From Sipunculus nudus (Eukaryota > Annelida > Sipuncula > Golfingiida > Sipunculidae), in assembly GCA_026874595.1 (NCBI GenBank), contig CM049320.1, forward strand, positions 3,227,464-3,291,463: 64,000 nt of DNA. The letters are read 5' to 3'. This document shows, in pieces, positions 1-61,636 of the stretch. Within the stretch, counting starts at the first letter, position 1, and the number at the start of each line of letters is the position of its first letter. Under the pieces are notes generated by a model that had not been told where the DNA came from, searched no databases, and was given only the letters and a program-made list of their open reading frames with translations. A program made the translations under genes and the position numbers.

Positions 1-175
1 CCATCTTTTTCCGTTCAAACTTTTACACCTTTATCTCGCCCATCTTTTTCCGCTCAGACTTTTACACATTTATCTCGCCCTTCTTTTTCCACTCGCTCAC
101 ACTTATCTCGCCCATCTTTCTCCGTCACACACCACCTCGCCCATCTTTTGGCGTTCATACCGTGCCGCCTGGCCT
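1..175. repeat. Left subterminal tandem array of copy A
   Basis: Imperfect units of about 25-35 bases built on 'TCTCGCCCATCTTT' and 'CGTTCA/CGTCACAC' end in GTGCCGCCTGGCCTCATG. The same array and the same closing block occur at the left ends of the other copies (16,735-16,860, 18,705-18,861, 41,780-41,910). Its place just inside the terminus suggests a transposase-binding region, which is inference. Confidence 0.7.
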
Positions 176-748
176 CATGCTCGTGGCTCAGGCGATTAAA
201 AACGGAGACGTGAGTTAAAAATAAAAACAAGTGCTTTAATTCAACTCAAATAAATCAAGTGTAACAGAATTCGTGCCGGTAACAAAACAACGTGAACAAA
301 ACCATGTGAAATTAGCAAGAAATCATGTTAAATAAATTAACGAGAGTGCAATCATGTAAAATAAATTACTGTGAGTGAAATCACCAAATAATTAAAGTCA
401 ATTAAAGTATCAAACCTGATACTGTTCATTTTAAATATGAAATCATTCGATTAAAAGAATTATGAATACAATCACAAGAACCCATGCGATTTAAAAATGA
501 TATCACCCGTATACTCCAGTACAATCACATTAATAATCTCATATTCACGATAAACACCCGTATTTTACGTCTGGTATACCCAGATGATATGACAAGTATA
601 TGGAAATATAAAAACCAGTCCAGCTGGCTAGGTATTTATGCGTCTGTGTATATAAATAAATATATAAATGGACAGTGTTTGATGTTTGTGTGCACCTATA
701 TCTGCACATATCCTATATCTGTGACCTGTGTACCATCGGTAAAAAAAA
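176..748. other. Copy A left interior, no gene
   Basis: After the block AACGGAGACGTGAGTT (also near 16,880, and as a variant near 41,920) the DNA is AT-rich with degenerate repeats of AAATCATGTGAAAT. No convincing coding region is present. The stretch aligns by eye with 16,880-17,100 and 41,920-42,200. Confidence 0.6.
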
Positions 749-908
749 CCCTCTTTATAAATGAAAAGAGGGGAAAAATACACCTGTCTTTACATTTTCC
801 CTGAACTGCATACTATTGGTTAAAAAAAACCCTCTTTATTAATTTAAAGAGGGAAAAAAATATGCAGTCTTGTAAAAAAAAAAACCCTGGAAACTGTTTC
901 TTCCAGGG
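749..908. other. Three stem-loops of identical geometry
   Basis: Perfect 8-bp stems with 8-base loops lie at 749-772 (CCCTCTTT/AAAGAGGG), 830-853 (the same stem) and 885-908 (CCCTGGAA/TTCCAGGG). Each is flanked by runs of A. They sit about 1.8 kb downstream of the transposase stop codon on that gene's strand. A 3' processing or transcription-ending role is possible but unproven. Confidence 0.7.
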
Positions 909-2391
909 AAAAAAAATCATGGAGTTGAGAGGGAGGGGGGGGGTCACACCTGGCTTGTAACCTGCCCCCCCCCCCCCCCCCCAACTATTGTTTTGGCTTG
1001 TATGCACAGGGGCCACACCTTCGTTATTAAAACCTGTGCAGGCATGTGCTGTTTGCACTTGAGTGACCTTGTTGTTTGATCAATTCCTCAAGTTTTAATC
1101 AAACCTTGAGGTGTTAGTGATGTTAATGTATTAGTGTGTTAGTGTTAGTGTGGTTATTGCATGCACGAGATGCATCTCACATTTCTTGATTTCATACTCT
1201 GTTTCAACCATCACCCAAGTGTAATTTTACACCATTTCAATCTGTACACCATTTCAATCTCTGTACCTTTGTCAAGTGTAAACTTGTCCACCAACCACCC
1301 AAGTTCACACCAGTTTAAATATAAAGTAACTGATACAACCAGTGAAATATCTGTACCCATATTAATATATATCATTTAAACCAATGAAACTTCCAACCAA
1401 TCAATACATGATCATGTGCATCACCTGTGTGCACAAAATCCAATAATAACTATTTCATGAAATAAACACCATATTAACCTGAAACCTCAGGTTTTCATTT
1501 GTATATTTTTGGCACAAGTGTTTGTAACCAGGTACAGGCTATTTTTGGTTTGTTAGCTCATAGAACCCTTTGTGTACCGGTACACAGCCTGTACCTGATT
1601 GTAAACCCAAAATTGTTTAAACCTTTCATGTTTGTCTAGACCAAATGAAAGAAAATTCAGATACCAAATAGGCAATGCCTGCTCATGAGCACAAGTTACC
1701 CTGCATACCAACCCCATTCCCCCCTCCCTCTCCCTGCCCCCCCCCCCAAACAATTTCCTGTTGCATTTTCACCATTTCATATCATGATCAGCAGGAAGAT
1801 CACACTTGTATTTACTGTTCATTGACACCTGGTCATGTATTTGCTGTTTATCAGCTCCTGGTCATGCACAAGTCACAAGCTCTGGTTGCCCGAGATACAG
1901 GCAACCTCTAATCATGATCAGCAGATAATACCATAATGTACATGTATTCATCAACTCAGCAATCCCTGATCACAAAACAGTGTGCTACATATACCAGCAA
2001 CCAAAAGTTTATGTCAGCGCCCTGTACCATAATGGTATTTACTATAAAGTAAATTTTGTGCTCACTGAATGTGATGATCAGGAGAATATACCTTGTCACG
2101 AGCAAGTGTACATCAAAATAACTGCTGCCATTTATGTATACCAAAGAACTGAGTGTACCACAAAACTTATTGTTACCTTAACTGCTGATCATGACCAAAT
2201 ACACTTATTATATATTCTATGACCATAATATCTTTGATCTCCACTGCTGACCATGAGCATAAATTGTCTATACATTATTTGACCATGTATGTACACCAAA
2301 TAACTCTATGTCACAAAGTAGGTGTACATCAAATATCAGCTAGCATAAATGCTCACCATGAACATATACTCTGTACATTATATAACCAAAA
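909..2391. other. Copy A interior, low complexity and weak repeats
   Basis: Contains a G-rich run (932-942), an 18-base C tract (965-982), and a loosely repeated motif around CTGCTGATCATGA (near 1,785, 1,915, 2,075, 2,185 and 2,240). Short open frames here run through repeats and are not credible genes. The 1,100-1,160 part, rich in GTTAGTGT, resembles 17,715-17,760 in element B. Confidence 0.5.
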
Positions 2392-2660
2392 GCATCATGT
2401 GTGTGTACTTGTCACCATGCATGTACACCATGAAGGTGTACACCAAATGGCATATACTCGGTATACTGTATCACCAAAAACATCATGTGTGTGTACTTGT
2501 CACCATGTATGTGCACCATGAAGGTGTACACCAAATAGCATATACTCTGTATACTAAATCTCCAAAAACACCGTGTGTGTGTACTCGCCACCATGTATGT
2601 ACACCATTAAGGTGTTAACCAAATAGCATATAATCTGTATACAGTATCACCAATAACACC
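2392..2660. repeat. 88-bp tandem repeat just downstream of the transposase gene
   Basis: Three units start near 2,393, 2,481 and 2,569. Each contains CATGTGTGTGTACT, a CACCATGTATGT block and GGTGTACACCAAATAGCAT. Shorter relatives occur at the matching place in copy D (42,430-42,570). Confidence 0.75.
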
Positions 2661-2719
2661 ACATTACACAAAAACTCACACACATGAAACAAAAGTCACA
2701 CACATGAAACACCTAGAGT

Positions 2720-3380
2720 TCACTTCCGCCGCCCATATCCGCGGCTCATTAGGGCGGCCTTCCACTCCTCGAAAGTCGACGTTTCCTTGGCTGGGCAATA
2801 CCAGTTCCCGAAGTACTGTCTGTGGTTGCCATCCTGCCGGGGGAGGCCACACTTCCGGCATCGGATGGCTTCAGTGTGTCTCCGGTAGGTCTTCGTGGGA
2901 AGTCCCTTGGCCTCCTGTTCCTGCTTCCGCTTCAGGTAGTAGAAGCGGGAGCGAGTCATCGACGGGTCGGGTCTGACAGGAGGCTGCGAAGACCCACTTG
3001 CCGCACTTGGTTGTGCCGATGCCATACGAACAGGCTGCTGAGGCTGCGGAGCTGGAGCGGGCTGCTGAGGCAGCGGCGGAGGCAGCACGATCATCGTGTA
3101 TGGCATCGTCGCGGGCTGTGGAGACACCAGTACTGGTCTTGGAGGTGCTGGCGTGAGAACTGGTACCCTGGTTGCAGCTGGTCGACGGTGACGAACCTTG
3201 CTTTGGCCCGTTGTGATGTCCGGGAACGAGAAGGTCATCGGCCGGACATCGAAGCGTGGTAGGGCCACTGGCAAGGTCTGTGCTGGTGGAAGCGGTTCTG
3301 CAGCGGTGGTTGCTGGCGGCGGGAGGGTGATTCCTTGTTCTAGGACCTGTCTCTCCCGCCTCTTTTCACGCTTGTTGTAC
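2720..3380 (-). CDS. Transposase exon 11, Pro/Gln-rich tail and C-terminal CCHC motif
   Basis: Acceptor CTTCCAG, stop TGA at 2,720-2,722. It begins YNKREKRRERQVLEQGI (conserved), runs through about 120 Pro/Ala/Gln-rich residues and ends with C-x2-C-x8-H-x8-C (C1417, C1420, H1429, C1438) and FEEWKAALMSRGYGRRK. The CCHC motif is likely a zinc knuckle that binds DNA or RNA. Confidence 0.85.
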
Positions 3381-6300
3381 CTGGAAGTATAAAATAGCAT
3401 ATATTTTACTACAGAGTTGCACAAATACACCAATTTAATATGCATACAAATATATATATATAATACAGTTTGAAATATGGCATACATTTATTAAGTGTAT
3501 GGAGTCTGAAGTGGTTTGACTTAATGCCTCCCCCCCCCCCCCCCCAACACACAACGACTTATTTACAATCATTGATAGCAAAAGGTGATTCACCAGCCAA
3601 ATAAATAACAACAGATTATGACGCACTAATGATACAATGCTGTGTTTATAATGCTGATTTTACTCACCACTGCAGAAGTGTCGTGTTGTTGATGTCCACC
3701 AGCTGGAGTCCCGTCAAAGCTACAACCCTTGCATGAGCTGTCACGAGGTCCTGGATCTTCTTGTAGGCCCGACAAATCAGGGTCCACCGCAGTGTCGTCT
3801 TGCCTTTCACCGTGAGGGGATTCGGGAACAGGCTGCAGAGCTTCGACACCACGGCTTCCACATAGCGATTGCAGTCGGGCCACTGAGCAGGACCGCTCAT
3901 GCTGCCAAGGAAACATCTGAAAAACACAAACAAAAGCAAAGGTAAGCATTTATGTTAAATCTATAAACATGCAAGTCAACCTACAACATGATCTGATAAG
4001 AAACAGAATCCTGATTACCCCCCCCCCCCCCACCATAAACCTTACAGGTGTAGTTGTTTGTAATACATCAATTTTACTTCTAATACACCATTTATGTACA
4101 TAGTAACAAAGTGTATGGATACATCTTCAATATCAACTGCAATTCTCCCTTTTAGGCATTTAACATATACAGTTTAATTAGATATTTACCTTTTGGTGCT
4201 TTCAGCACCGGGATGACTGGGCGCCCCACGGGTCTTGGACGCCTTGAATCTGCCGCTGGCCTTGGTTTTGTGCCGCGGCTTGAATACCGTGGGGCGCTGA
4301 TCATACGGCGTCAGGTCGTTCCACAGCCGTATGATCTCGTCTGCCTGACTGTTGTTCACCGGTCCCTTCTGGTCGTGGAGCGACACCAGGTACGACGCCA
4401 AGGCGACGACCTTCTCGTACCCTGCCACTCCCTCGGGACCAACTGCTCCCTGGAAAACAGAAAAAGACATGATTTTAAGTTCACAGGAAATTAAAGGTAA
4501 GTGCATTGTAACTGCAATGGGAACCTGGTTAGCCCTGGCATTATTGGACACAACAACATTATGACGTATTTTAAATGGACACTTGTATGTTTAAGTCTTG
4601 CTTTACCATTGCTGACATGAAAATCTTTACAGCTAGAATTTTATATTAACTGGTGTTTTATTATAAACCAATAACAGTGAAAAACAAGTTAAACAATAAC
4701 ACTCATACCAATACTTGTTATAACAGGCACACATAAAAAAACACATGAAATATTTACCTCAGGATCAGACGAATCTGAAGATACAGGGGAGGAGGTAGCC
4801 AGAGGTGCAGCTTCACTCTGTTCCACCATAGGCTGGTCAGATGTAGAGGGTCCGGCCACGGGGGGGCTCTGGGCTCTCGTCTGGGGTTCTGACGCTGGCC
4901 TGGCGGGTGGAACCGGAGCTGCTTCTTCCCTCACCTCTTCTGGTTGGACACCAGGAACTGCACTAGGTGAGGGGGCACCAGTAACCGCGGTGGCAGAAAC
5001 TTCCCCGGCAGATGTGGCAGCAGAGACTGCAACACAAAAAGACCACACATATACCACTTGTAAATACTGCCAGAGTATCACGAACCATCTGTGTATGGTA
5101 CACTAACATGGGCAGTAGTAAAGATGCTCTCTGTATAACTGCTTGAAAAACGCTAACAATACATAGATATACTGTAAAGCTTTGTATACTGTGCACTATG
5201 TTTACTGACATTTCAAGTTGAATTGAAGTGATCAATGACCAAACACTATATATTTTACACCAAACACTTGACACTATTCCCTTTTTGTGTGGCAGGTTGT
5301 GCAGTATTGATCCAACTTACCATTTGCGTCGGGGAACACAACTTCTACTGGTGCTACAGTTGGATCCTCTGGCTCCTCGAAACCCTCATCAGACCTGTCG
5401 CCATCGCACAGTGGTGGCTCGTCAGTAGGCTGATCAGGGTCCATGGCCTGGTCCTGGAGCACTTTCCCTGTCTGGCTGAACAGGTACTCCACTCCAATCA
5501 ACTCCCCTGATCAAAGAAAACAACATCTAATTAATACATCTCACATAATAATTGACAAGCGATAACATTTTCATTCAAATAAACGTACCGGCTTTTTATC
5601 TACCGCCCCTCTCCCACCCGTTTTTTTTACTGCAATGTTGGTGTGTATTTTAGTAATCATTTTGTTCCAGTATCAGTCATGTACTTGTGGTGGTGGCATT
5701 TTTATCAGTGCAAATGTATTGATGCAAAGTGAAAGCTGGTTATTATATAATACTTTTCCAACAAACAACACAAACTGTGTCTAAACACACCTGTATACTT
5801 CCCGATCTGGCGAAGGGGCTGGACGAAGTTCTCTCCCATGACCTGGGAGCTCAGCTGGTTCAAGGCCTCGCACAAACTGCGGTGGTACACGTGGTGTTCC
5901 GGCGCGCGGGCTACTGGACCTTGTGAAACAGCTGCTCCGGCTCGGTCTTCGTTCCAGCGCCTCAGTCCTTCCAACAGGTACGCCTGAAAGTGCAGGTCGC
6001 TGGCACTGGTACCTGAAACAAACGAGCAGAAAACATTACAGAATGAATCAAACTACTCCCTTATTCATTTCCAGATTTATCTTCTTGGCTTCCTACTGAA
6101 AGAAAAACAGAAATGCTAAAATTAATCTCCCCGGCAGGCGCTGAAATTCAACCACGCGAGAACATGCATGAGATACTGCAGGCCTTATATATTACAGTCC
6201 CAACACTACCCCATATCTTAACGGGCCGTTCACTGGTATTGGTGACACAGAGCACACATCATTTGTTATAGTGTCTTTAACAAAACTGTTTACTTGTATT

Positions 6301-9300
6301 GCATGAGCCACCCACCTGGTATAAACCTGTTCTGGTGAAGATGGAAGGACTCGAGTGACGATGATCCGCGGGCACACCTGTACACGGGCAGCCTCACTCC
6401 CCCCTTGGTGACGTGGCCAGTCTCCACGTAGAGCTGTACTCCCTCGGGGTCCTGGAGGCAGCGGAGGTGCTTCTTCTGGGCGTTCCAGATGTTCCAGGTG
6501 CGGTCCGCGTCGAGCAACGGCACTCCTAAGGTATCTCTCCCTTGGGGTCCGGAGAAAGTGTTCAGCAGGTCTTCGATCAGAGAGGTTCCGTTGTGTGGAT
6601 CCCGGGTTCGGCGTCGACAGTGGGTGGATAGCTCCTTCCTGGAAATGTGCCTCAGGACGACACTGTCGGACGGGTTGGGGATTCCACTTCTGACCAACTC
6701 TTCTCGCTTGGCCTGCTTCAGCTGCTCCAGATCCTCCTCGCTCCATTCAAAAATACACAGTGACAAGCGGGCCATGAACACACCGTGCAGCTGGTGTGAC
6801 TCGGTGGTGCAGGCGGTGGCGATTCTTCGCATGAAGTGGTAAGCGTCGAGCCTGATCTGAAGGTCGGTCCACTCATGGAACAGGTTCCTCACCTTGGTTT
6901 CGCCTGCACAACAACAGTCCCTGTCAACGTACAGCAGCACTGGCGGGGCCACCCGCGCTTCGCGATAGCGTCTCATCAGTCCGTTGGCCATAGGCGCCAG
7001 GCCAGCGCCTTCGCTCGCTGTGAGCACGCTCATCAGCACTTCGCCGCGTTCGTTGCCGACGTTGGTGGCCCATGCCGCTGTACCCGCGCTGTGACCCGCA
7101 AGTTTGTGCACAATCTGCTTCGTAGAGTCCAACTTGAGAACGCATCCGAAGGTAGACGTAATGGACGCCTTCACCTCTTCCAGCCTCCCTTTTATGTCCT
7201 GGACGTAGACAGTGAGCAGCCACCTGCTTTCCGGGACCGGAACGTACGGTGGTGGCTTTTCGACGCTGCGGGGCAGAACGAGTCTGCGCTCTGCCGCCGA
7301 ACTGAAGGACTTGCAGTCCGTGAAGTACATCAGCGCCTGGTTGAAGTACTGCTCACTGTGCTGCTCGGAAATCTTCTTTTGGAGCTGGGTAGAGCTGTTC
7401 CCAAGGCCTCTCTGCCGAAGTAGACGGATGACCCTGATGTCGCACGCGTAGCGGTACGTGAGGAGCACTGGGAACTGCTGGCGGTGTCCGACGTCGAGTT
7501 GTTGGACGATGGCCGGACTCCAGGCGATCACCTTGCGTTTGCAGTTCTGGCACTCCAGGTACTCAGCCGCGAGGTTGTAGTAGCGGTCGACGTCAAGCAC
7601 TTGCCGGGTGTGTTGGTAGACTCCGGCACTGGTGAGCTCGACGTCCTTACAACCTTCCTGGGGGCAGACCAGCCGGACTTGCCACAGGCGCCGTGGCATC
7701 CACAGCAGGAGGCGCTGCGCGAAGTACAGGTCCGGGCGCGGGGGCTGGCTGCATATAGGTGCGGGCTGAGGAGGGTACCACCACAGCTTGTCGACTCTGA
7801 AACGACAAAGAAGTTCACAGTGATAAGTAATGTGACAAATTGTGTGGCGCTTCTTGTTTTTTAAGTCTTTATGCCCGCTGCCGCAGTGTCTTCATGCTGA
7901 TTACTGTATCGTTACCTAACCACTTTTAACGTTGTAGGCGCATGATAATATACACAAGTTAAAATTAACCCCGAGAACCTGAAACAGAATATTCACAAAA
8001 GATTAAACACAACAGCAATAAATCATTGTACTCCTCTATACTACTGTGTGACTCGTGCTTACCTGGCTGTGTCCAGTGTGGGCTTGCCAGTCTTGGGGTG
8101 GGTCTTGAACAGAGCACGGGAGATCCAACCGTGGTCCGCTTTCGGGAGAGAATCCCGCCATCCATCAGGGAGTGTCTGCGGACCTGGAAAATAAAAGGCG
8201 GAGGAATGCTACATTATCTTGCATAACATATTCCAATTTTAAATCAAAAGTGAGCAGGAGTCTGATGCAATACTGGTGTCTACCATTTAGACCTAAGACT
8301 GTGTAAGCATCATCAGACCTTCAGAACATTAATGTAGACTTTCTGTTATAAAGCACCAGTTTAATAAAACACATTTATTATTTATGAAGGACCCAGATCT
8401 GTAAAACATGTTCAAAGTTTAAAGTATCTTCCTAGCAGACATAAACATTTTGGGAAGGCCATTACAGCCACACCCGCTCAATCAGGTTGTTTGTGTAATT
8501 AAGAAATGTGGACGGAAAACCCACCTGAGGCACTTCCCAGTGGGACTCCTAACACAGGTTGGGAGACGGCAGGTGTCTGTGGAGGACTCAGTGTTGACTC
8601 CGAGACTGGAGTCGCCAGCCCTCGAGACTCTTGTGTAACTGTAACAAAGCAGACATTGTTCATTATGTGCAGTCTTATAACATACCGGTACCAAGTTTTT
8701 TGCACAAGTCTTCTTATTAAAATCATTTATGAGATCTTAATCCCTATGGCACACATATTATATATCACCCACCAAGGACTACGTTATTCACAGCATTTTT
8801 ATTCACCCCATTACTTTCTGCATGTTGGCATGTCATTTTAAATCACTTCTATATATTTTAAAGTAAACATATTCACCTGTTTGCCGTCTCTCAACCGCTT
8901 CGGCTACTGCTACCAGTTCTGCCTCGTCGCCGGAGTCGGACGAGTCCTGGGGTGGCCTGGATACGGTAGCAGTAGGGGATGGCCTGGGCGCTGGTTCCCG
9001 GGGCTGGTGCGGAACTGGTCCCGGGGAGGCCCTGGCCATCGACAGGTTCGGCATGACCGGGGAAGGGCTCCTGGACGTCAGGCTCTCCAACTTCTTCGCC
9101 AACCGGGCTCCGTGGAGATGACTACTCACGAGTGAGGCGATCCCGGTGGGTACAGGTGAGCTGGAGGCTGACCGCTGGCTGGGTGACGTGGTGGCCCTGG
9201 GTGTTGTCGGCCTGGTGACGGTGCTGGAAGGCTGCGTGGAGCTGGACTGGGAAGCCTGGGCTTCCCTCTTGGCAGCCTTCGCCGCGATGGCGTGCCGCGA

Positions 9301-9983
9301 CTCCGGAAAGGACTCGGCGTAGCGGCGTAGCGCATCCTTGTTCTGGCTGAGCGGTGCACCGGTCACCCTCTCGTGTCGCATGCTGTCCACGAGGTATCCC
9401 ACGTACCCAAGGTTGTTCTCCAAGAGCCACTTGAAAGTCTGGCCCCGGTATGCTCCAAACTGCACTCGGTATTCGCCAAGCACCTCGACCCGATCAGCTG
9501 GGTTCCCCCCACGCTTGGCGACATCCCGCAGTGCCAGTTTACGAACCTGAAGGAGTAAAAAAAAAAAGGAAATTTTTAAGTCTGATGGCCACTTATCACT
9601 TGGAGTGCATAATACAAAAAGCGCATTCATCATTTACAATTGGTTTTAATATGCTCTTTGTACAGGAACAATAAATTATTTTTTTTGTCGTTATCGGTTG
9701 TTGGATTATCATTTCAGTATGAATATGGAGTATGCAAACTTATTAATCACTCGACACATCACTTGTTACATTCAAACCAAGCTTCTTTACAACAGAAACA
9801 CTCAGGAATAGCAGCGTAACAACTTACCTGCTCTGAAGACATGGCCATAGGCACAGGCTTGCCCTTGTTAGCTTCGGCGACCCTCGCCGCCGCATTAGAG
9901 CAGCCCAAGGTGGGCTCTCCATCTGGGCGGCGCCGAAACCTGGGCCCGGCCTGTGTCCCCTCTGGCTTGGGTGTCTGGCTCAT
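2720..9983 (-). CDS. Dada-like transposase, 11 exons, 1,462 aa, intact
   Basis: I joined minus-strand exons 9983-9828, 9546-8877, 8638-8525, 8183-8063, 7796-6316, 6012-5791, 5506-5321, 5026-4758, 4449-4190, 3916-3668 and 3380-2720. Every intron is GT..AG and the summed length is 4,389 bases, with no internal stop. Domains in order: N-terminal RGQTFKWLLE (about 87-95), Ser/Pro-rich linker, WWYPPQP (about 359-365), zinc-type C398/C403 and C436/C439 resembling DUF6729, DDE-like core (D577 in LKLDSTKQ, D645 in YVDRDC, E836 in SSLESFH), GRFKASK in exon 9, and C-terminal CCHC (C1417, C1420, H1429, C1438). I recognise this multi-exon architecture from many uncharacterised fish and invertebrate proteins. 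The exons are GC-rich compared with the AT-rich introns. It presumably acts in the nucleus to cut and insert the element at U6. The catalytic assignment is inference; the family match is strong. Confidence 0.85.
3525..4034. repeat. Poly-C tracts in transposase introns
   Basis: C runs lie near 3,529-3,545 (intron 10) and 4,018-4,031 (intron 9). Copy D has C runs at the equivalent intron places (near 55,472-55,484 and 55,987-56,003), so the tracts predate the split of the two copies. Confidence 0.65.
3668..3916 (-). CDS. Transposase exon 10 (PAQWPDCNRYVEAVVSKLC block)
   Basis: Acceptor TTTTTCAG, donor CAGTG|GTGAGT. It encodes a compact, conserved, possibly helical domain: MSGPAQWPDCNRYVEAV, TTLRWTLICRAYKKIQ and LQLVDINNTTLLQW. 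In copy D this exon has a 26-base deletion and a mutated acceptor. Confidence 0.82.
4190..4449 (-). CDS. Transposase exon 9 (GRFK block)
   Basis: Acceptor TTTTCCAG, donor AAAAG|GTAAAT. It encodes IIRLWNDLTPYDQRPTVFKP followed by ASGRFKASK, a conserved family block that looks DNA-binding. Two bases carry over into exon 10. Confidence 0.82.
4758..5026 (-). CDS. Transposase exon 8 (disordered linker)
   Basis: Acceptor TTGCAG, donor CTGAG|GTAAAT. The 90 residues are rich in Ala, Pro, Ser and Glu with no recognised fold. The exon is kept in copy D (58,460-58,714), where its donor GT has become AT. Confidence 0.75.
5321..5506 (-). CDS. Transposase exon 7 (GELIGVEYLFSQTG block)
   Basis: Acceptor TTGATCAG, donor AATG|GTAAGT. 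It begins with the conserved GELIGVEYLFSQTG and continues into an acidic, proline-rich stretch (DPDQPTDEPP and FEEPEDPT), probably a flexible linker. Confidence 0.8.
5791..6012 (-). CDS. Transposase exon 6
   Basis: Acceptor GTTTCAG, donor ATACAG|GTGTG. It continues FIPGTSASDLHFQAYLLEGL and RRWNEDRAGAA, conserved in the family directly after the last acidic residue of the core, and ends in QIGKYTG. The matching exon in copy D (59,543-59,746) is 18 bases shorter. Confidence 0.85.
6316..7796 (-). CDS. Transposase exon 5, DUF6729-like zinc domain and DDE-like core
   Basis: A 1,481-base exon. It opens with KLWWYPPQP and RPDLYFAQRLLLWMPRRLW, then a zinc-type set (C398, C403, C436, C439, with H416 nearby). 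The RNase H-like core has LKLDSTKQI (D577), LLYVDRDCC (D645, D647), RLDAYHFMRR (D671, H674) and SSLESFH (E836), with a long helical insert CIFEWSEEDLEQLKQAK between the second and third acidic sites. The choice of D577/D645/E836 as triad is inference from spacing and conservation in copy D. Confidence 0.88.
8063..8183 (-). CDS. Transposase exon 4 (DHGWISRALF block)
   Basis: Acceptor TTTCCAG, donor GCCAG|GTAAGC. It encodes GPQTLPDGWRDSLPKADHGW and ISRALFKTH, matching the family region that comes just before the WWYPPQP block. Reading continues into exon 5 by a codon split 2+1. Confidence 0.85.
8525..8638 (-). CDS. Transposase exon 3 (linker)
   Basis: A 114-base exon with acceptor TTACAG and donor CTCAG|GTGG. 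It encodes a Ser/Pro/Thr-rich linker (VTQESRGLATPVSES and on) without a recognised domain. Its phase (1 in, 1 out) fits exons 2 and 4. Confidence 0.7.
8877..9546 (-). CDS. Transposase exon 2 (aa 53-275), QTFKWLLE domain
   Basis: Acceptor CTCCTTCAG|GTTCGT and donor ACAG|GTGAAT. The first half holds the conserved block YRVQFGAYRGQTFKWLLEN and LGYVGYLV, a hallmark of the family. The second half is a long low-complexity Ser/Thr/Pro linker (about aa 155-265) with acidic DSGDEAE near its end, probably disordered. Confidence 0.85.
9828..9983 (-). CDS. Transposase exon 1 (aa 1-52)
   Basis: Starts at ATG 9983 and ends at a strong donor (CAG|GTAAGT). It encodes a basic N-terminus with the run RFRRRPDG. 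A pyrimidine tract and CAG sit two bases before the ATG, so an untranslated or short coding exon further upstream may be spliced to it. Confidence 0.7.
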
Positions 9984-10167
9984 GTCTGAAAAAAATGAAG
10001 AAAAAATCTGTTGACATACTGTAAAAATATATATATTTTAATATTAAACTGTCCATAGTCTCCAATACCAATGAATGGCCTTGTGTTTAATCTACATATA
10101 AATAAAAATTAATAGTACATAAATACATACATATATATATACATTATAAACATATATATATATTTAT

Positions 10168-10198
<31 letters not shown>

Positions 10199-10405
10199 TT
10201 TAACTTAATTTATATATATGACATACATTTAAAACATTTTTTGTCACCGATACCAATGAATGGCCCTGCTGGCGCATTAAAAAATGCTTTGTCTAAAATA
10301 CCTCTAACACCAGTAAATGCAGAACAAAAAATTACCCTAATGTTATAGAATATGCAAAAAGATGAGCAGATTATAATATTAAACTTTAAATAAAATACAC
10401 ATTGA
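9984..10405. other. AT-rich 5' flank of the transposase gene
   Basis: Contains a TA-dinucleotide region (about 10,028-10,215) and two copies of a sequence reading ATACCAATGAATGGCC (near 10,064 and 10,249). No coding sequence is seen. As the upstream side of the minus-strand gene, this is where its promoter should lie; I cannot pick out a specific box. Confidence 0.55.
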
Positions 10406-10740
10406 AATAATTATGGCCCTAATACCAATGAATGGTCTGAGGGGACAAAAAATGCATTGTTGTTACCAATTATATTCATTTTTGTGCATATCTGTCACAA
10501 TCGCATATTTTCTTTGTTCCTGAATTCATTGGTATTAGTGCCATTCATTGGTATTTTTGACATCAAATTGGCTATAGATGTCAAAAATACCAATGAATGG
10601 CACTAATACCAATGAATTCAGGAACAAAGAAAATAAGCAAATGTGACATATTTATGCACAAAAATGCATAAAATACATACCAATAATGCATCCTGATTTG
10701 TCCCCACAGACCATTCATTGGTATTAGGGACACAATTACT
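10406..10740. repeat. Large palindrome with perfect 57-bp inner arms
   Basis: The arms 10,508-10,564 and 10,577-10,633 are perfect reverse complements around a 12-base loop. Weaker complementarity carries on outward to about 10,406 and 10,740. Each arm holds several copies of CCATTCATTGGTATT. It lies about 0.5 kb upstream of the transposase start codon. Confidence 0.9.
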
Positions 10741-11390
10741 TAACCGTGTGTCACATTTATAGTTTATGTTAAAAATTATTCTAAATTATATGTATTATTA
10801 AAAATTTATATAGAATTACATCATATATGTATGTTAGAGTCAGTATATATAATATATATGTATAATATATAAATATATATATTATTCATTCAATAATTTA
10901 TTACATATTTATATTATCTATAAACTAATGTTACTGTCCGATAACAAAGGAAAGGGCAATTCGCAGGTATTAGGGACAAAACATGTTAAATTGTTAAATA
11001 TTATATTATATCATCACAATATTACTATAATTATGAAACAAAACAGATACATTCTGTATATATTACATATTTATATTATTTATACACATATGTAACTGCC
11101 CGATAGCAAAGATATGAGCTGTTACCAGGTATAAGGGACAAAACTTGTTAAAATTTACATATTAAAGTGTTTAAATTATTAATATAACATGTTATCTTCT
11201 TAATATATTTTAATAATAGTAATATAATTATAAAACTTCTCATAAAACAATAATCCTCTCGATATTTTATGATACACCATAAAACACATATTTTATATAC
11301 TGAACATGAGAATCAAAGCCAAATCTTCCCTTAAATATAGTGATGTAAACAAATTTATTCTTCAGAGTTTTATTTAACCAAAATACATGT
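10741..11390. other. AT-rich non-coding stretch
   Basis: Very AT-rich with TATATA runs. Two related blocks, GGTATTAGGGACAAAACATG near 10,957 and GGTATAAGGGACAAAACTTG near 11,135, resemble the GGTATTRGGGAC ending of the CCATTCATTGG motif. No gene is seen. Confidence 0.5.
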
Positions 11391-12190
11391 ATAAATATCA
11401 TTTTAAAATACACTTGAAGGAATTATCATGTTTCACATAATTTAAAGGATTGCGACAAACACCAAAGACATGTATGAATGTCATTTTAAATGCATTTGGA
11501 AGATTTATCATGTTTTACAACCTTTAAGAGCATGCGATAAACATCAAAGACATGTTTGAATGTAATTTTTAATACATTTGGAAGAATTATCATGTATTAC
11601 ATGTTTAAAGGATTGCGACAAGCACCAAAGACATGCATAAATGTCATTATTAATACATTTGAAGGAATAATCATGTTTTACATATTTTTAAGGATTACTA
11701 GAAATACCAAAGACATGTAAGGGAGACACTAAACAGTTTAAAAGAAAGAATAAATATTTAAAGTTGAGTTTTGAACCTGGATTTAATAAACATGGCATGC
11801 GATAAATACCAAAGACATGTATGGGTGACACTAAACAGTTTAAAAGACAAAATAAATATTTAAAGTTGAAATTTGGACCTGGATTTAATAAACATGGCAT
11901 GCGACAAAGACCAGAGACATGCAAGGGTGACACTAAACAGTTTAAAAGACAAAATAAATATTTAAAGTGGGAGTTTTGGACCTGGATTTAATAAGCATGG
12001 CATGCGACAAAGACCTGAGACCTGTATACATCATATTTTATATACATTTGGAAGAATTATGATATTTTACATATTTAAAGGATTGCGATTAAATCCTAAG
12101 ACATGTATTAATGTCATTTTAAATGCATTTAGAAGAATTGTCATGTTTTACACACTTCAAGGGCATGCGTCAAATACCAAAGACAAAGTT
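11391..12190. repeat. Tandem repeats of about 82 and 102 bp
   Basis: Units of about 82 bases (CATTTGGAAGAATTATCATG ... CCAAAGACATG) run from about 11,391 to 11,717 and again from about 12,020 to 12,185. Between them are three 102-bp units (GACACTAAACAGTTTAAAAG ... AAACATGGCATGCGA). Both unit types end in CCAAAGACATG-like sequence, so they share an origin. Confidence 0.8.
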
Positions 12191-14000
12191 TAAAGGCCAA
12201 AAAGTGGAACCATGAATCATTCAGATTTAATAGATTTTATAAACATTCCCATATCAATGGTGCATAAACAAATTGTACACCCTGATCACTGTAAACAAGT
12301 TCCATTATATCATAACAATGTCACAAGTGGTTGACCGGTTGGTGGTAAAGTATACAGGGGAAGGGGGGGGGGGAGGCTTATGTAAACAATACTGTGTACA
12401 GCAATTAACTGAAGCAGAAACATCTGGCTATTACATCACAACTGATACTGGATGACCAGAACAAGTGTCCACAGCTACTGAAGGATGCTGGCAGCTGACA
12501 AGGAACCCCCTCCATGAGAACAAGTCACAGGCCATACAGCTAATCAAGGGAACTGACTGCTAACAAGGAAACACCCCCCTCAGGAGTAGGTATAAGGGCT
12601 TGATGATGGGCCCCACTCAACACACAAAGAAGGTGATAAATGGGATTATTACACAGGGCTGAGGACATCATTATCTGATCATATACAATTAATTAATCAC
12701 AATGGGCTTTTCAGTTCCAATCAGACATGTCATCCTACCTATCATTATGTAGATACATCTTTTAAAATGACAACAAGACTGGGATTTCTAAGGGCCCTCC
12801 ATAAAGTAAACACCAAGTTCACTGTCATAATGACCATGAATTACACAAGTTCTTCAGATGTAAATATATTAGGAATTAATTTAATAAAACATGTAAGGTA
12901 CTGTCACATGTGGATGAATAAGAATATAGGCCCAATATGTATATTAAAACAGGACTCCTGTCACTGATATTATCACAAATTTGTAACAGGTCTAACAAAA
13001 ATATACAATTCAATTTATTTTGAATTCATGATTAAATACACAGGTAATGTAAACTGCTAATATATTCATGCCTCATGTTTACACTCATGTCACTGATATT
13101 ATTATTAATCACACATTTGAAGAAAACTAAAAATATTAATTTAGCATGATACAAACGAAGGCTACAAACATAACAACTCCTTGGGGTGATAAAGTATAAA
13201 AAGAAATTTTTTAAACCAGACATGACATGTCAGGATAAATTGAAATGAAATTCAGCTGTCAGAGATGGGAAACAACATATGCATGGCAAAAATGGAATTC
13301 ATGCAATGACAAGGAGAAAAAAATCAAAACAAATACAAGACTGCACATATCGAACTGGACTTCACTTCACCAATTTAAACATAAAATAAAAAAAAAATCC
13401 ATGCTTTTAAAGGCCGTATATGCCATGTTAAGGCTTGACTGTGATAACGAGCAGGGAATATTCGCGGTGCCGAGGTCTGATGTCAGAATTGCTTGCCACG
13501 CGTACGTGCAAAAATAGAAATTTGACATGAGGCCTGGAAGGGAGGGAGGGGGGGGGGGGGGGGGGAGGAAAACTGTGACTTTGTTTACCTGAAACCAGCC
13601 TGTTCCGAAGCAGTAAACGTCCAAAAGTTATGAGAAGGTTGTGGCCGATACATCCTGACTTGTTTACAAGGTAAAATCCATGACAATAAAATCGGTAAAT
13701 CCTAGCACAGACTTGGAGCGAAATGCCCAGACTCAGAACTTGGAACTGAAGTGAACATGGAACAGGGAAGCGTTCTGATTGGTCGAGAGTAGGGTCAGAC
13801 CAGTGCGGCCTGCACAACAATGTCGGATAAATCTTGAAAAACATTGGACTTTCACCGGAAAATACAGAGGTTTGTAAATTTTCCACAGCCCTGAAACTTC
13901 GGAGCAAGGTAGGTGACATTCTATTATAATCTTTGGCGTAAACCGGGGAAGGTAAAATTAGTTTTTAATCATGCACGGAGGACACATGCCTGGGTGAAAA
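12191..14000. other. Copy A right interior, no gene seen
   Basis: The part 12,250-12,550 matches copy D at 63,570-64,000 (TGATCACTGTAAA, GGTTGGTGGTAAAGT, GGATGCTGGCAGCT). It has G-runs at about 12,363 and 13,547-13,565. Open frames of 60-160 codons occur but show no family resemblance and run through the G-runs, so I do not call genes. Confidence 0.55.
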
Positions 14001-14009
14001 TTGGCATTC

Positions 14010-15050
14010 CGAGGCGACGCAGTAAATTTGGAAATGTCGGGGGGGGGGGGGGATTTACGCCTGTAAAAACCCTGAGTTATAGCAAATCTCAAACTTTCTA
14101 CTGTCAATAAAGTTAGTTTTCGGTTGTTAAACATCATACTCTTGAAATTGATGCAGCTGAGACATGATATTGCATGGTTTATAGCGAGAATTGTCCTTTT
14201 TTCGAAGCGGGGCTGAGATGTAAACAAAGTGGTAAATTTGGAAATGGCGGGGGAATTTACGCCTGTAAAACCCTGAGTTATAGCAAATCTCAAACTTTCT
14301 ACTGTCAATAAAGTTAATTTTTGGTTGTTAAATATCATACTCTTGAAATTGATGCAGCTGAGACATGATATTGCATGGTTAATAGCGAGAATTGTCCTAT
14401 TTTCGAAGCGGGGCCGAGCCCGGCTGAGATGTAAACAAAGGGGGGGGGGGCAAACAGAGGGAGGGGAAAATGGGGCCGTTGTGACGGTGTTAGAAAAGGC
14501 TGTATTGCAGCCGTTTCAGCACTTGACAATGTCAATAAAGTTGGTTTCGAGACGAAAAACATACTAATAAATATATTTACACCACTGACTACGAGTTGTT
14601 ATTATTTTTTAAGCCATAAATCTGATTTTTCGAAGCGGGGCCGAGTCGAGGTCCAAAGTGACAGAGGGCTCGGCCGAGGTGACTTGGTGTCAGAAAAGGC
14701 TGTATTGCAGCCTTATCAAGCCATAACAATGTCAATAAAGTTGGTTTCGGGATGAAAAACATTCGAATAAATATATTTACACCAATCGCTGTGAGTTGTT
14801 ATCATTTTTATTGCCAGAAAGTCTGATTTTCGAAGCGGGGACCATCGGTCAGAAAGTGGAGGGGGGGGGGGAGGGGGGTGGTGAATTAAACCGATGTTTT
14901 CCTACCTTTGTTCTCAAACAGCTGGTTCCCAGAGAGACCTGTTGGTTGGTAAGGATCTTCTCTTAGCTTTTGATGTGTATTTCTGGGCTGTCAGGGTGCT
15001 GACGTTCAGAAATTAGCGATTGAAGGTCTAGAAGCGAAGCGGGGCCCTAT
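14010..15050. repeat. Right subterminal array, ~200-bp period
   Basis: The word CGAAGCGGGG recurs near 14,199, 14,404, 14,632, 14,834 and 15,035, about every 200 bases. The first two units share CCTGAGTTATAGCAAATCTC; the next two share GTCAGAAAAGGCTGTATTGC. All of these four carry TGTCAATAAAGTT. G-tracts occur at about 14,040, 14,440 and 14,862. The array lies just inside the right end and is a likely transposase-recognition zone. Confidence 0.8.
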
Positions 15051-15068
15051 GTACCTGAAGCGAGCTAG

Positions 15069-15261
15069 CAGATTTGGAACTCCTCGGCTTGTGATTGGCC
15101 GAGAGCCTGGGTTCCACATTGCTGCTGTTACCTGATTGGCCGGTGAATTTGGCATTGCCAGTTCCAGATTTGTGAGATTTGGAACAACCCCAGGCTCTGA
15201 TTGGTTATGAATCTGGTACTTGTGGAACAAGGCCAGGCTCTCATTGGCTGGCAGTTCCAAA
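15069..15261. repeat. Near-terminal inverted words with repeated ATTGG sites
   Basis: GATTTGGAACT at 15,069 is the inverse of AGTTCCAAATC ending at 15,261, with another GATTTGGAAC near 15,176. Between them ATTGG (CCAAT on the other strand) occurs five times, near 15,095, 15,134, 15,201 and 15,242 among others. This may be a promoter-like or protein-binding region. Confidence 0.6.
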
Positions 15262-15270
15262 TCTAACAAA

Positions 15271-15300
15271 GGCTTATACTCAAAGATCAGACCGAATTAA
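15271..15300 (-). repeat. Right terminus of copy A with terminal inverted repeat
   Basis: Read on the minus strand, the end contains ATCTTTGAGTATAAGCC, matching ATCTTTGAGTGTGGCCA-type sequence at the left end of element B (16,442-16,458). The remaining 13 bases (15,288-15,300) lead straight into U6 sequence. Confidence 0.65.
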
Positions 15301-15343
15301 GCGCAAGGATGACACGCAAATTCGTGAAGCGTTCCATATTTTT
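15301..15343 (+). ncRNA. U6 snRNA gene, 3' half
   Basis: The sequence from GCGCAAGGATGACACGCAAA through TTCGTGAAGCGTTCCATA to a T run is the 3' part of metazoan U6, including its RNA polymerase III terminator. The 5' half is absent upstream: the transposon end abuts directly. U6 is the catalytic snRNA of the spliceosome; this copy cannot yield a normal RNA. Confidence 0.93.
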
Positions 15344-16325
15344 CGCCCCCTCTAAAATTAGAAAGAAAAAAAAAAAAATAATAATCCAAAATCAAAAGTT
15401 GGAAAAAAAAAAAAGTGACTTGTACCCCGCGCAATAAAATTTTGTGTAGGGTCCATCGGGCCAAATGTAAAATCAGGCCCGCAGCCGGACGGATAAATTA
15501 ATTGGCGTGTGGGCGGCCTGGAGGTTTGCTGGTTAAAAACCTTCCTAAATATACCTGACGGGCTGATCTGTTTTTCAGGGCCGGAGGACCTTCGCAACAC
15601 CAGTGCGCCCTCATCGGGGGCGATCCGGGAGCCGGCGACATCTGCTGGAGATAGGTCGTGTCACCGGGTTGCTGTGTGTGCCGCCAGGCAGGCTGTCGTA
15701 TGTGAGTGAGTGTTGCATGTCCGACAGGAAGGGACCCGAAAGGTTGAATTTTTTATTCGCCAACAAAGTTGATGAAAGGACAGTCATATACATTTATCAC
15801 TATTCAGAGACTTTGGACTGTGTAACGGTTTCTTTCGTGTGCGTGCGTGCGTGCGTGCGTGTTTGTCCGTGCGTCTGTTTGTAAATCTCTCTGTCAGCAT
15901 TAACGGGATGATATATATTAAAAAATTTCAAGGACAAGAAACAAAAAAAAAAAAAAAAAAAACCCACAAACTACTTAATTTCTCATGACTAGAGTGTAGA
16001 AGTACCTAAATCTTGATTCTTCAATAACCCGCCAGGCGGCGGCGGAACCTGAACAACGGAAGCAGGACGTAAACAAGGCGTCAGGTGTCCCGTCACGGCT
16101 GGGCACGCAGCTAATCCCCATGAATAACCTGCAGAAAAAAATGCACACAAGCCGACCCGCCTTAAAATAAAAAGCTTCCACCTGGACCCAGTCTCAACTG
16201 CAAAACACAACCACCTTTTTCTTTTGCCACACACAGGTTTGTTAACCGCGGGTTAAGGCCCTTGTCCACGTGGTTGCCGCCACGAAGGCGCCACACCCGA
16301 GATAAAAGATGGCGGCGCTACCCCG
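15344..16325. other. Spacer between the two interrupted U6 copies
   Basis: About 1 kb with A-runs (15,364-15,380, 15,403-15,413, 15,942-15,962) and a GTGC-rich microsatellite (15,838-15,862). No coding region is seen. It reads as the intergenic spacer of a tandem U6 locus, with the promoter of the next U6 at its right end. Confidence 0.6.
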
Positions 16326-16332
16326 TATAAAT
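16326..16332 (+). promoter_or_regulatory. U6 TATA box
   Basis: TATAAAT lies 31 bases before the predicted first base of U6, the normal place in an RNA polymerase III type 3 promoter. The more distal PSE should lie around 16,285-16,315, but I cannot define it without the species consensus. Confidence 0.75.
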
Positions 16333-16356
16333 GGCAGATGTATGCGCTGCCTAACT

Positions 16357-16381
16357 GTACAGCTTCATGCTGTACATATAT

Positions 16382-16413
<32 letters not shown>

Positions 16414-16424
16414 GGCCCCTGCGC
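16357..16424 (+). ncRNA. U6 snRNA gene, 5' half
   Basis: Begins with a 5' stem-loop (GTACAGC/GCTGTAC), then TTAAAATTGGAACGATACAG and AGAAGATTAGCATGGCCCCT. It holds the ACAGAGA box that pairs with the 5' splice site. After CCCCTGCGC it departs from U6 and becomes transposon sequence. The 5' stem differs from vertebrate U6 but keeps its pairing. Confidence 0.93.
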
Positions 16425-16441
16425 GCAAGGACAGGCGCGCA

Positions 16442-16458
16442 ATCTTTGAGTGTGGCCA
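16442..16458 (+). repeat. Left terminal inverted repeat of element B
   Basis: ATCTTTGAGTGTGGCCA is the counterpart of the right end of copy A read in reverse (15,271-15,287), about 14 of 17 positions agreeing. It lies 17 bases after the last clear U6 base. Confidence 0.6.
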
Positions 16459-16734
16459 CACGCACCGAAAAGCGCCGATTCCGGCCAGAAAGGAGAAATT
16501 CAATGGCACACAAAGCTTTCTTTCAGGTCCAAAAGTCCCCCGGTCCCAGCGTTAATTGTCAGGTCGCTGCGAGCGAGAGAAATCGCCCTTTCTGCGAGAA
16601 CAATGCCTATTCATTACCGGCTCGGTCCGCCATTCACACTCGCCGGAGCATAGAGACCCCTTTCATTCCCGCCTGAGCGCTTTACGCTCAAGCCTCGCTC
16701 TGATACTCGGCACTGTCTAACCCAGCTATCATCT

Positions 16735-16860
16735 TTTGGCGTTCATCCTACTTTCTCCCTCATCTTTTGGCGTTCATAATACTTTCGCCCCCATCTTTCG
16801 GCCTAGCACACACGTTAGCACTCATCTTTCGGCGTTCCACACTTGCCGCCTGGCCTCATG
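16735..16860. repeat. Left subterminal array of element B
   Basis: Repeated CATCTTT(T/C)GGCGTTCA words followed by GCCGCCTGGCCTCATG, the same order as positions 100-175 of copy A. Confidence 0.7.
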
Positions 16861-17655
16861 TACGTGCACAGGCGATGTATAACGGAGACGTGAGTTTAAG
16901 GGAAATTGTGCTTTTAATTCAGTTCAAACAAAAACAAGTGTACATGAAATCATATGAAATGAAACAACGTGAAAGAAATCATAGGAATTACGTGCAGGAA
17001 ATCACTTTAAATTAAATCATGTGCAGGAAATCATACGAAATAATAAACATGCAGAAAATGATACGGATCAAACACGGAAACCAGTTTCTTTTAACGGATA
17101 CTGATCATACGCGTCGTGCACGAAAGTCTGACCTTCCAGGTTTAATCAGAAAGGCCGATCTGTCTGCTCTGATATCACAGTCTCTACAATCAGTTTGATT
17201 TACACTAGTTCTCGATTTATGCATGTGAAATCTTTATTATATATATACATTGATATTTGAAATCCATATTTTGCGTCTGTTCTATACATGCATGAAATAA
17301 TATAAATAAAGACTGGTCTACATTTGTGTTTCTTTGTGCATATATATGTGCTGTGCGGCAGTGTGTTTCACGTGCGTAAATATGCAGGTTTCTATACCAT
17401 TCCAGACTGTCGGTAAGAGGCATATTTTACGAATAATACAAAAGATCTGTACAAAAAGACGCATTGTTCAGTTGCACTGGCTGTATAAACAAACACCAGA
17501 GTTACTGCTCCTTGTAAAAAGCTATCACCTTATCTGGTTCACAATAAACAAACTATACAGAAAATAATGAAATAAACAAACAGAGTATTGACCAAATTCA
17601 CTCTCATTGCCATCTCCTTCATTAAAACCGCTGTGGTTATCTGCTGTTTGTACCC

Positions 17656-18162
17656 TTTGCGTAGGCCCTCTGTCACTTTTGTTCATCTTCTGTATACAGT
17701 TTTTCAAATCCGGTTAATATGGTTAATGTTAATGTATTAGTGGGTTACAATGTTAACATCTGGTTATGTCATGACGCACAGTATAAACCAGTTCATACAT
17801 CTGTAGTGATGATGTGTATGTTGCATTAACACCAAATAACATCAGAAATATACCTGTTAACAAGTTACAAGTTAGTGTGCACCAAATACCAGATTAATGT
17901 GGACACTAAAGCACATTTACTTTTTGTACAGTCTGTATCCTTGGCTCCACAGGTCCTCAAAGCTGAGTCTCATTGGCAGACTTTCTTTGTTCTCTGAGTA
18001 GATGGAGACACTTTGCGTAGGCCCTCTGTCACCTTGTGTTTATCTTCTGTATACAGATTTCATGTTTTTCAAATCCTGTTAATATGGTTAATATATTAGT
18101 GGGTTACAATGTTAACGTCTGGTTATGTCATGACGCACAAGATACATCAGTTTATACATCTG
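17656..18162. repeat. Direct repeat pair of about 150 bp
   Basis: 17,656-17,802 and 18,011-18,162 share TTTGCGTAGGCCCTCTGTCAC, CTTCTGTATACAG, TTAGTGGGTTACAATGTTAAC and CTGGTTATGTCATGACGCAC. They differ by small indels. The 200 bases between show nothing recognised. Confidence 0.8.
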
Positions 18163-18569
18163 TTTAATATGAAGTATGTTTCAAGTAAATTTTGTCAAAT
18201 TTATTCCTTTTTGTCCTGTTCTCTATTGGTTTAACCTCAGTATGCCCCCCCCCAAAAAAAAGAACTGTTATCACATTTTAAAAATATCTATTTCTTAGGG
18301 TGTTTACCAGGCAAACAATCAAAAACAATAAGTTACGATGAACAGGTCCACACAATCCTGATTGGCATATATGATCCTGTGATTCAAATACAGATACAGA
18401 TTTTACTCACAACTGCACTGGAGTAGTCTGGTTGTTGTTTATCATATCCATCATTTGGCCATTGGTCATTGCCACAATAACAGCTAGACAGGCTCTGAGA
18501 GTAGCTTGGGAGTATCTGGAGATGTGCTCTGAGTAGCTGGAGAGAATGTGTGAGTAGCTGTAGATGCTT

Positions 18570-18861
18570 TAGTATATTTAAACTCCTTTCATTCCCTTCT
18601 GACTGCTTTGCGCTCAAGCCTCGCTCTGGGGGTACTGGATGCACTCACTACACGTAGACCTTTGCCATCAAACTCTTGGCATTTTCAGATTCACACTTTT
18701 ATCAGACATATCTTTCGCCGTTCCACACATTTATCTCGCCCATCTTTTTCCGCTCACACATATTTCGCCCTTCTTCTGCCGTCACATACCATCTGGCCCA
18801 TCTTTCTCCGTCACACACCATCTCGCCCATCTTTCGGCGTTCCATACTGTGCCGCCTGTTT
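18570..18861 (-). mobile_element. Truncated left end of Dada-like element C
   Basis: Begins with CCTTTCATTCCCTTCTGACTG and CGCTCAAGCCTCGCTCTG, as at 16,655-16,705, then the subterminal array (18,705-18,861) almost identical in order to positions 1-165 of copy A. It stops at GTGCCGCCTG, where the Gypsy relic begins. Confidence 0.6.
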
Positions 18862-21870: not shown

Positions 21871-21879
21871 GTCGCCTAG

Positions 21880-41752: not shown

Positions 41753-42575
41753 ATGTGACCTACACTTGATGTGAGACACGTTTTGCCCACATCTTTCACC
41801 GTTCCACACTCTTATCGCCCTCATCTTTCACCGTTTCACATACTTTCGCCGTCACACACTTTTACTCAACTTTCGGCGTCACATATCTTCTCGCCTTGCC
41901 TCAGGGCTGTGCTCAGACGATGTTTAACGGAGAAGTGAGTTAAAAATAAACGTGCTTTAATTCTTATAAAACATTTCAAGTGTTCAAGAATTCATGCGAG
42001 TAATACAAAACACAATGTGACCACATGAAAAATCATGTGAAATTTATTGTGCGTGAAATCATATAAAGTTAAGTAATGTGCAGGCAAATAATACGGATCA
42101 AACATGCGTGTCCACGTTCTTGATACGTAATCAGTTGATCAAACCTGATACTGATGACAGCAGTTGTTAATATGAAAGAAATCTTTTAAAATAAAAAATA
42201 ATTAATACCATACTTGTCTTGTTTGAACCCCGTATACTCCAATATAATCACAAGAACCTATATGATATCAGAGTCTCGTTTATAACATTTTTAACACTAA
42301 CACTACCAGCTGGTTTAGTTTATCATGAAAGTGTTTATATTTCCATGTACATATATCATCTGGGTATACCAGACGCAAAATACGGAGGTATATTTTTAGT
42401 GTGCGTATAGTGAAAACCAGATAACACAAGTACTTGTACACCAAATATCTTCTACCACCAATGCCCATAAAGAGCATACACTGTAAATGTACACCATATA
42501 ACACAAGTAATTGTACACCAAATGCCCATAAAGAACATACACACACACACATAAAACAATCACAAACAGTCACAG
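41753..42575 (-). mobile_element. Dada-like element D, left part
   Basis: Array of CATCTTTCACCGTTCCACAC-type units (41,780-41,910), AACGGAGAAGTGAGTTAAAA, then AT-rich DNA matching copy A 230-500 (TCAAACCTGATACTG in both), and CCATATAACACAAGTA/GTACACCAAAT repeats before the gene's 3' end. It is shorter than the same region of A by about 1.9 kb. Confidence 0.7.
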
Positions 42576-42786: not shown

Positions 42787-42859
42787 CATTATATATATTA
42801 CATTGATATATTATATATGGATATAATATCTAGCTTGCAACATACAATAATTAAGTTGT

Positions 42860-56358: not shown

Positions 56359-56419
56359 TCCTGATTAGACCTGATTAACACTTGACATGAAAATGATGGT
56401 AAGTGCATTATTAACCTGT

Positions 56420-58400: not shown

Positions 58401-58459
58401 ACATAAGAGTCAGTTCAAATTAATAAACGGATGAAATATATATCTCAGAACCAGGACCT

Positions 58460-61632: not shown

Positions 61633-61636
61633 ACTA

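Follow-up and report, generated by a model that had tools for sequence, protein, structure and literature searches.

Two neighbouring U6 genes of Sipunculus nudus, very probably split at the same base by different Dada-type transposons

Introduction

How does the 3′ half of a U6 small nuclear RNA (snRNA) gene come to lie about 1 kb ahead of a U6 5′ half? The question is raised by a 64,000-nucleotide stretch of the Sipunculus nudus genome (1.43 Gb; C15:3227464-3291463, contig CM049320.1 of assembly GCA_026874595.1), which is called the window here and whose own positions are used unless a contig is named. In a first-pass annotation of the bare letters, the arrangement was ascribed to a U6-specific element, such as a Dada transposon, that had hit two neighbouring U6 genes of a tandem locus at the same base.

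Dada is one of a small number of DNA transposons for which the targeting of a single site within a gene has been reported. A target site duplication of 6-7 bp is a criterion of the superfamily, and that of Dada-U6 is reported as GCGCAA at the U6 site CCCCT/GCGCAA (Kojima and Jurka, 2013; PMC3706591). Here, we find that two neighbouring units of what was once a tandem U6 array have very probably each been hit by a Dada-type transposon, in separate events and at one and the same base (CCCCT^GCGCAA^GG). Element B would have split the upstream gene and left its 3′ half, and element C, a putative non-autonomous relative mobilised in trans, would have split the next gene and left its 5′ half. This would explain why the spacer has a U6 3′ half before it and a 5′ half after it. 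A 6-bp staggered cut followed by transposition would have made both junctions, and the 5′ half of the upstream gene, expected to end in CCCCTGCGCAA before the left end of B, would lie in a run of N before the window.

Results

Two U6 halves broken at one site

The features between the two elements are as follows.

15301..15343, plus strand: U6 3′ half with T-run terminator, adjoining the right end of B
15301..15306, plus strand: GCGCAA at the right junction of B, equal to the published Dada-U6 target duplication
15344..16356, no strand: spacer between the two U6 units, 1,013 bp
15438..15613, no strand: spacer segment of about 176 bp that resembles tandem-array units on C28, C13, C21 and C5 at 78-79%
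16290..16309, plus strand: weak promoter element resembling a proximal sequence element (PSE), CCC at -61, fourth-best spacer position in a matrix from five genes
16326..16331, plus strand: TATA box at -31, upstream of the U6 5′ half
16357..16424, plus strand: U6 5′ half, model positions 1-66 of Rfam U6, adjoining the left end of C
16423..16428, plus strand: GCGCAA at the left junction of C, with an extra GC relative to intact U6

The 3′ half is identical to intact U6 at 43/43 positions and ends in a T run, and the 5′ half matches the Rfam U6 model with 63.1 bits (E 1.4e-13). Both halves end at CCCCT/GCGCAA, the right junction of B reading GAATTAA-GCGCAAGGATGAC and the left junction of C reading CCCCTGC-GCGCAA-GGACAGG. 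The reversed order, the spacer of about 1 kb, the TATA box and the common break point described in the first-pass annotation are therefore all confirmed.

The offsets of the TATA box (-31) and of the PSE-like element (-61) are those of both intact U6 genes on C16; three other positions in the spacer score above the PSE-like match. Because the TATA box and the weak PSE-like match stand at these offsets, the 5′ half looks like a true U6 gene that was later broken, as opposed to a copy lacking a promoter. The sequence of its 5′ stem-loop is unlike that of the C16 genes, with the pairing kept (GTACAGC/GCTGTAC, by eye).

The U6-type right end was found at two places in the genome at up to 3 mismatches, both at the U6 junctions of B and of another copy, A (control, 0). 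The left-end pattern occurs exactly at three places (C15, C11 and C16); four more at 3 mismatches were left unused given two matches in the control. Copy A holds a second U6 3′ half with the same junction (C15:3214752), and this half is followed by the sole other spacer copy seen among the 40 of 407 candidates that were scored, 166 bp at 99% and then a run of N. The arrays that resemble spacer part 15438-15613 have periods of 2.1 kb on C28, 1.6 kb on C13 and 6.2 kb on C21 and C5, and no RNA family reached its gathering score in them.

A sub-terminal repeat beside each junction

The two element ends that face the spacer have an inverted repeat in common.

15278..15287, plus strand: right sub-terminal repeat ACTCAAAGAT of B
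16442..16451, plus strand: left sub-terminal repeat ATCTTTGAGT of C

The repeat is 10 bp long and stands 13 bases from GCGCAA on both sides. Only 1 of 20,000 simple letter shuffles reached a common run of 10. The annotation's claim that the halves are joined to related transposons is supported by this repeat at the same offset and by the 70% identity of B and C described below.

The sub-terminal inverted repeat published as common to all Dada-U6 is TCTTCTCTG/CAGAGAAGA (PMC3706591). B and C keep its offset but only its ATCTT core, and so we file them as Dada elements in U6, outside the published Dada-U6 group. A tRNA-inserted copy on C16 (L014) has ATCTTCTTTG at its right end, which resembles the published U6 repeat more than the ends in U6 genes do; this speaks against simple mimicry of the target. 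The Dada-U6 repeat duplicates a portion of its U6 target, and a role in recognising that target has been suggested for it in print. Mimicry of U6 is apparently not needed, since the repeat has changed alike on the right of B and the left of C with the U6 target fixed. The cited portions of PMC3706591 and PMC8869645 yielded nothing on end exchange or on the variant ATCTTTGAGT/ACTCAAAGAT.

Element B and its transposase

Element B fills the first part of the window, up to the U6 3′ half.

1..15300, minus strand: element B, Dada-type DNA transposon, transposase opposite to U6, DUF6729 E 3e-66
2723..2944, minus strand: candidate C-terminal exon with a CxxC-H-C zinc-finger-like motif (translation, by eye), with a relative in element D
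6293..7891, minus strand: main transposase exon, a 533-codon open frame with CCCC finger, D, D, DxxH (DAYH) and E
9256..9546, minus strand: candidate upstream exon, open frame only
15055..15300, plus strand: right-terminal 246 bp, letter-identical to the end of A

The transposase of B is apparently split by introns, and the 533-aa frame of its main exon matches Pfam DUF6729 with E 3.6e-81. DUF6729 is the only Pfam label of this domain, and the comparison with Dada was made on residue spacing. Before the DDE domain stands a CCCC zinc finger with spacing 5/33/3 (5/35/3 in Dada-U6_DR). The first and second D are 68 residues apart in both proteins, the second D and the E are 191 apart in B and 176 in Dada-U6_DR, and DxxH follows 26 residues after the second D. 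In the candidate C-terminal CCHC finger, CxxC is followed by H at +9 and C at +9 (by eye), against 3/10/9 in Dada-U6_DR. Among relatives, the second D, DxxH and E are conserved in two loci (L031 and L035), and the first D in L031 and L028. The residue signature, the CCCC finger and the order D-D-DxxH-E support a transposase of the Dada type.

An AlphaFold model of 469 residues, from five aligned rows, was compared with the PDB by VIA-align. The top three entries are ISCth4 transposase (Z 7.5, 6.8 and 6.1; residues 224-452 of B), and the aligned residues hold the second D, the DxxH and the E, not the first D. The best chain, 6xgx_A, gives a modest match (Z 7.5, root-mean-square deviation 3.5, 137 aligned). 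We take ISCth4 to belong to the IS256 family and Hermes to the hAT family. Both families are named as distant relatives of Dada in PMC3706591.

Element C, copy A and the number of insertions

Right of the spacer, one line describes what can be assigned to C.

16429..18858, no strand: left part of element C, a relative of the tRNA-inserted copies L013 and L014

The first 1.6 kb of C are 83% identical (gaps counted) to L014, a 6.6-kb copy on C16 with both ends present, and to L013 on C11, whose continuation (L042) has lost its right part. No right end of C was found. L014 has no match to seven peptides of B, and the C/L014 family therefore appears non-autonomous. The left part of B (window 73-364) aligns to positions 330-619 of C at 70% over about 300 columns. 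Judged by this homology with C, the left terminus of B is predicted some 257 bp ahead of the window and inside the run of N; B would then measure about 15.6 kb. B and C are different elements, and therefore two separate insertions flank the spacer. Together with the published site, the orientation, GCGCAA and the Dada-type transposase, this bears out the proposal that two neighbouring U6 genes were hit by Dada.

GCGCAA is present at the right of B and the left of C. It stands on both sides of L014, where the native copies listed read GGCCAA or near variants. At U6 a target duplication is inferred, each insertion there being readable on one side at most.

The final 246 bp of A equal those of B exactly and are followed by the U6 3′ half and then by spacer at 99%, and the body of A is close to L014 and not to B (243/347). 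A may owe this to conversion or duplication with B. With runs of N on both sides and an exact 246-bp end, A was not added to the two insertions counted; the idea of a third independent insertion, suggested by the body unlike B and the spacer 99% alike, was rejected on these same grounds.

Relatives in tRNA genes, and ends versus bodies

L013 and L014 are each flanked on the left by a repeated transfer RNA (tRNA) gene. The Rfam tRNA model matches three uninserted copies in L018 (34.6-42.7 bits), and ARAGORN at default settings reported no tRNA in 16 loci or the window. A pattern for this gene occurs at 199 places in the genome, 100 of which were listed and their target site judged by eye: none of the 100 has GCGC, and most read GGCCAA. 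The inserted copies L013 and L014 read GCGCAA where the uninserted ones listed read GGCCAA or near variants. The break is at tRNA nucleotides 8-13 of a TGGCCA-type gene. These nucleotides are a known Dada target position (Kojima, 2022; PMC8869645), and a flanking GCGCAA foreign to the target is also reported for Dada-tA (PMC3706591). On C11 the right flank is the remainder of a tRNA unit of the same family, and on C16 it is without about 15-18 bases of the tRNA (by eye). The first-pass idea of a U6-specific element does not hold for the family of C, whose closest relatives sit in tRNA genes.

The tRNA gene itself shows an upstream TATA-like box and tandem units of about 295-310 bp in L017 and L018 (C16:43281400-43282200 and C15:28609400-28610500).

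Identities along the elements were counted in 100-column windows with gaps left out. Between C and L013 the outermost 100 columns agree at 65/99, the next at 87/99 and the rest at 1,201/1,304 (92%); L013 and L014 agree at 92/93 in the outermost window. Another count at the left end, over alignment columns 48-150, gave 60/101, against 305/321 in the next 370. On the right, A and L014 agree at about 93% in the body (1,350/1,457) and at about 90% through most of the terminal 246 bp, but at 12/29 in the final aligned window. Copies in U6 and in tRNA genes thus have bodies about 92% identical and differ by target class over about 100 bp at the left end and, clearly, over only about the last 30 bp at the right. 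An earlier estimate, bodies 94-95% identical with about 250 bp of class-specific right end, was rejected in favour of these windowed counts. The sample comprises one left end in U6 and two in tRNA, and two non-independent right ends in U6 and one in tRNA.

The U6-type ends on a body shared with tRNA-inserted copies could be due to gene conversion with B in the case of A; the case of C is independent of A. One tentative proposal, which may well be wrong, is that the outermost ends of Dada elements and not the body carry the target choice, so that exchange of ends with an autonomous element would bring another transposase and another target gene.

U6 copies and Dada remnants elsewhere

The U6 core was found at 8 places in the genome with 2 or fewer mismatches. 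For the U6 3′ half, 28 places have 3 or fewer, and 6 of these are exact; reversed-pattern controls gave 0 for both. In an Rfam U6 search that scored 48 of 151,300 candidates and gave 31 matches, the intact pair on C16 alone reached 118 bits, the next best being 91. The U6 loci read on C4, C14 and C16 had no match to the window outside U6 and AT-rich repeats. Three U6 variants on C4 (55507109, 55575156 and 55777078) have an altered target, CCCCTGGCGCAAGG twice and CCCCTGGGGCAAGG once, and no insertion.

A segment derived from U6, with a short deletion inside it, also belongs to a dispersed repeat that is at least 0.8 kb long and about 93% alike between the four copies read; copies include C1:88020053, C3:12663678, C6:30102384 and others (L008, L023, L024, L025). 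About 20 of the 28 places of the U6 3′ half bear its signature GGAAGACACGCAGATTC or a near variant (by eye).

Further Dada sequence lies in the right part of the window.

41785..63567, minus strand: element D, diverged Dada-type, with stop codons and insertions resembling long interspersed nuclear elements (LINEs) inside, probably one element, continuing into L010

At C15 ~3298580 (L010) the right end of D appears to stop about 150 bp short and to abut the left end of a further element; the sequence at the joint, CTGACTGGCCGGT, is similar to the tRNA target (both by eye). DUF6729 has 39 matches in the genome, of which 10 lie on C15 between 3.23 and 3.40 Mb. A cluster of Dada remnants spans C15 from about 3.21 to 3.43 Mb, with the 8 of these matches beyond 3.34 Mb on the opposite strand and right-end pieces continuing to 3.43 Mb. 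On C6, DUF6729 transposase copies are spaced at about 13.2 kb (50286557-50313860) and 13.1 kb (88353220-88367176). An RNA-gene scan of the DUF6729 loci gave none on C6 (one unit read) and, on C9, one microRNA-model match far below its gathering score. Other Dada pieces stand 74 kb from the intact U6 pair (C16) and 31 kb from a U6-like copy (C14), and none matched intact U6 or the spacer; of these four Dada-piece loci, the Rfam scan covered L028.

Among the Dada pieces of the window, positions 19678-22835, 33768-35450 and 44929-52051 hold frames like those of long terminal repeat (LTR) retroelements (aspartyl protease, integrase zinc domain) and LINE-like reverse transcriptase/endonuclease frames. 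Positions 56896-57440 hold a 272-bp tandem duplication with a 100% match.

Discussion

Alternative explanations

Several observations weigh against two independent Dada insertions. The first-pass annotation had counted unrelated flanks of intact U6 copies against its own proposal; the intact tandem pair on C16 does have an unrelated spacer (best E 0.15). Intact U6 units could lie unseen in runs of N near the C15 locus, which may or may not be assembly gaps. The U6 5′ junction reads CCCCTGC-GCGCAA, with the extra GC. It could be explained by slippage within GCGC, or equally by an element arriving with a GCGCAA of its own at a site two bases along. None of the U6 insertions has both junctions readable, the other junctions lying in or beside runs of N, and copy A, itself between such runs, has 246 exact end bases in common with B. 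The AlphaFold model of B is weak, with a mean predicted local distance difference test (pLDDT) score of 57.6 and blocks of 63 to 93 in residues 231-440. All VIA-align Z values are below 8, unrelated rows reach Z 4-5, Hermes (Z 4.4) being among these, and Foldseek alone gave 0 matches at E <=0.001, with aldo-keto reductases on top and ISCth4 fifth at E 0.63.

Could the same picture have come from one Dada insertion alone, with the split U6 unit then duplicated in tandem and the copies diverging? Duplication or conversion did occur in the cluster, as the exact 246-bp end, the U6 3′ half and the near-identical spacer common to A and B indicate. However, B and C are only 70% alike where comparable, with U6 pieces identical or nearly so to intact U6, and B encodes a transposase while L014, the relative of C, lacks a match to the peptides of B, which renders such a history improbable. 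That the halves were joined by mis-scaffolding or haplotype mixing is very improbable, despite the runs of N found ahead of the window and flanking A: the window has no N, and spacer, both halves and both element ends stand on one ungapped stretch. It is scarcely conceivable that the halves are U6 pseudogene fragments in or beside an unrelated repeat, without a transposase-made junction. They are exact in the core, the 5′ half has a TATA box at the right offset, and both end at the same base against defined element ends, and the dispersed repeat of at least 0.8 kb, which does carry a U6-derived segment, has a different signature.

Comparison with known Dada elements

Dada-U6_DR, Dada-U6_CGi and others (Kojima and Jurka, 2013; PMC3706591) lie inside U6 genes at the same position, CCCCT/GCGCAA. 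Their DDE transposase likewise has the CCCC finger and DxxH, and in zebrafish (Dada-U6_DR) it too is encoded on the strand opposite to U6. Further likenesses are sub-terminal inverted repeats set at a constant distance from the target site and non-autonomous copies at the same site. In contrast, the repeat here is the variant with ATCTT alone kept, one junction has an extra GC, and B would measure about 15.6 kb against the published 4,666-10,979 bp. The internally deleted Dada-U6N1_DR is likewise a non-autonomous copy with the ends of an autonomous Dada, but A and C have the body of the tRNA-inserted copies and are U6-type only in their outermost 30-100 bp.

Another group, Dada-tS, -tN, -tR, -tY and -tK (Kojima, 2022; PMC8869645), has the targeting of tRNA nucleotides 8-13 in common with L013 and L014. 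Unlike those published elements, L014 is apparently non-autonomous, and the bodies of its family are about 92% identical (gaps left out) to U6 copies of the same genome. The GCGCAA flank of L013 and L014, unlike the native sequence, recalls the replacement reported for Dada-tA.

Implications

Dada in neighbouring U6 genes is an arrangement of a known kind. To it are added a variant of the sub-terminal repeat, outermost ends that differ with the target, and a hint that ends decide targets. Dada is present here in a genome whose readable part has few intact U6 genes. If the ends carry the target choice, the old GCGCAA edge would travel along with a body that is moved to a different target gene. 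Bodies in common with ends specific to a target class offer a concrete test of retargeting sequences, which is relevant to targeted gene delivery.
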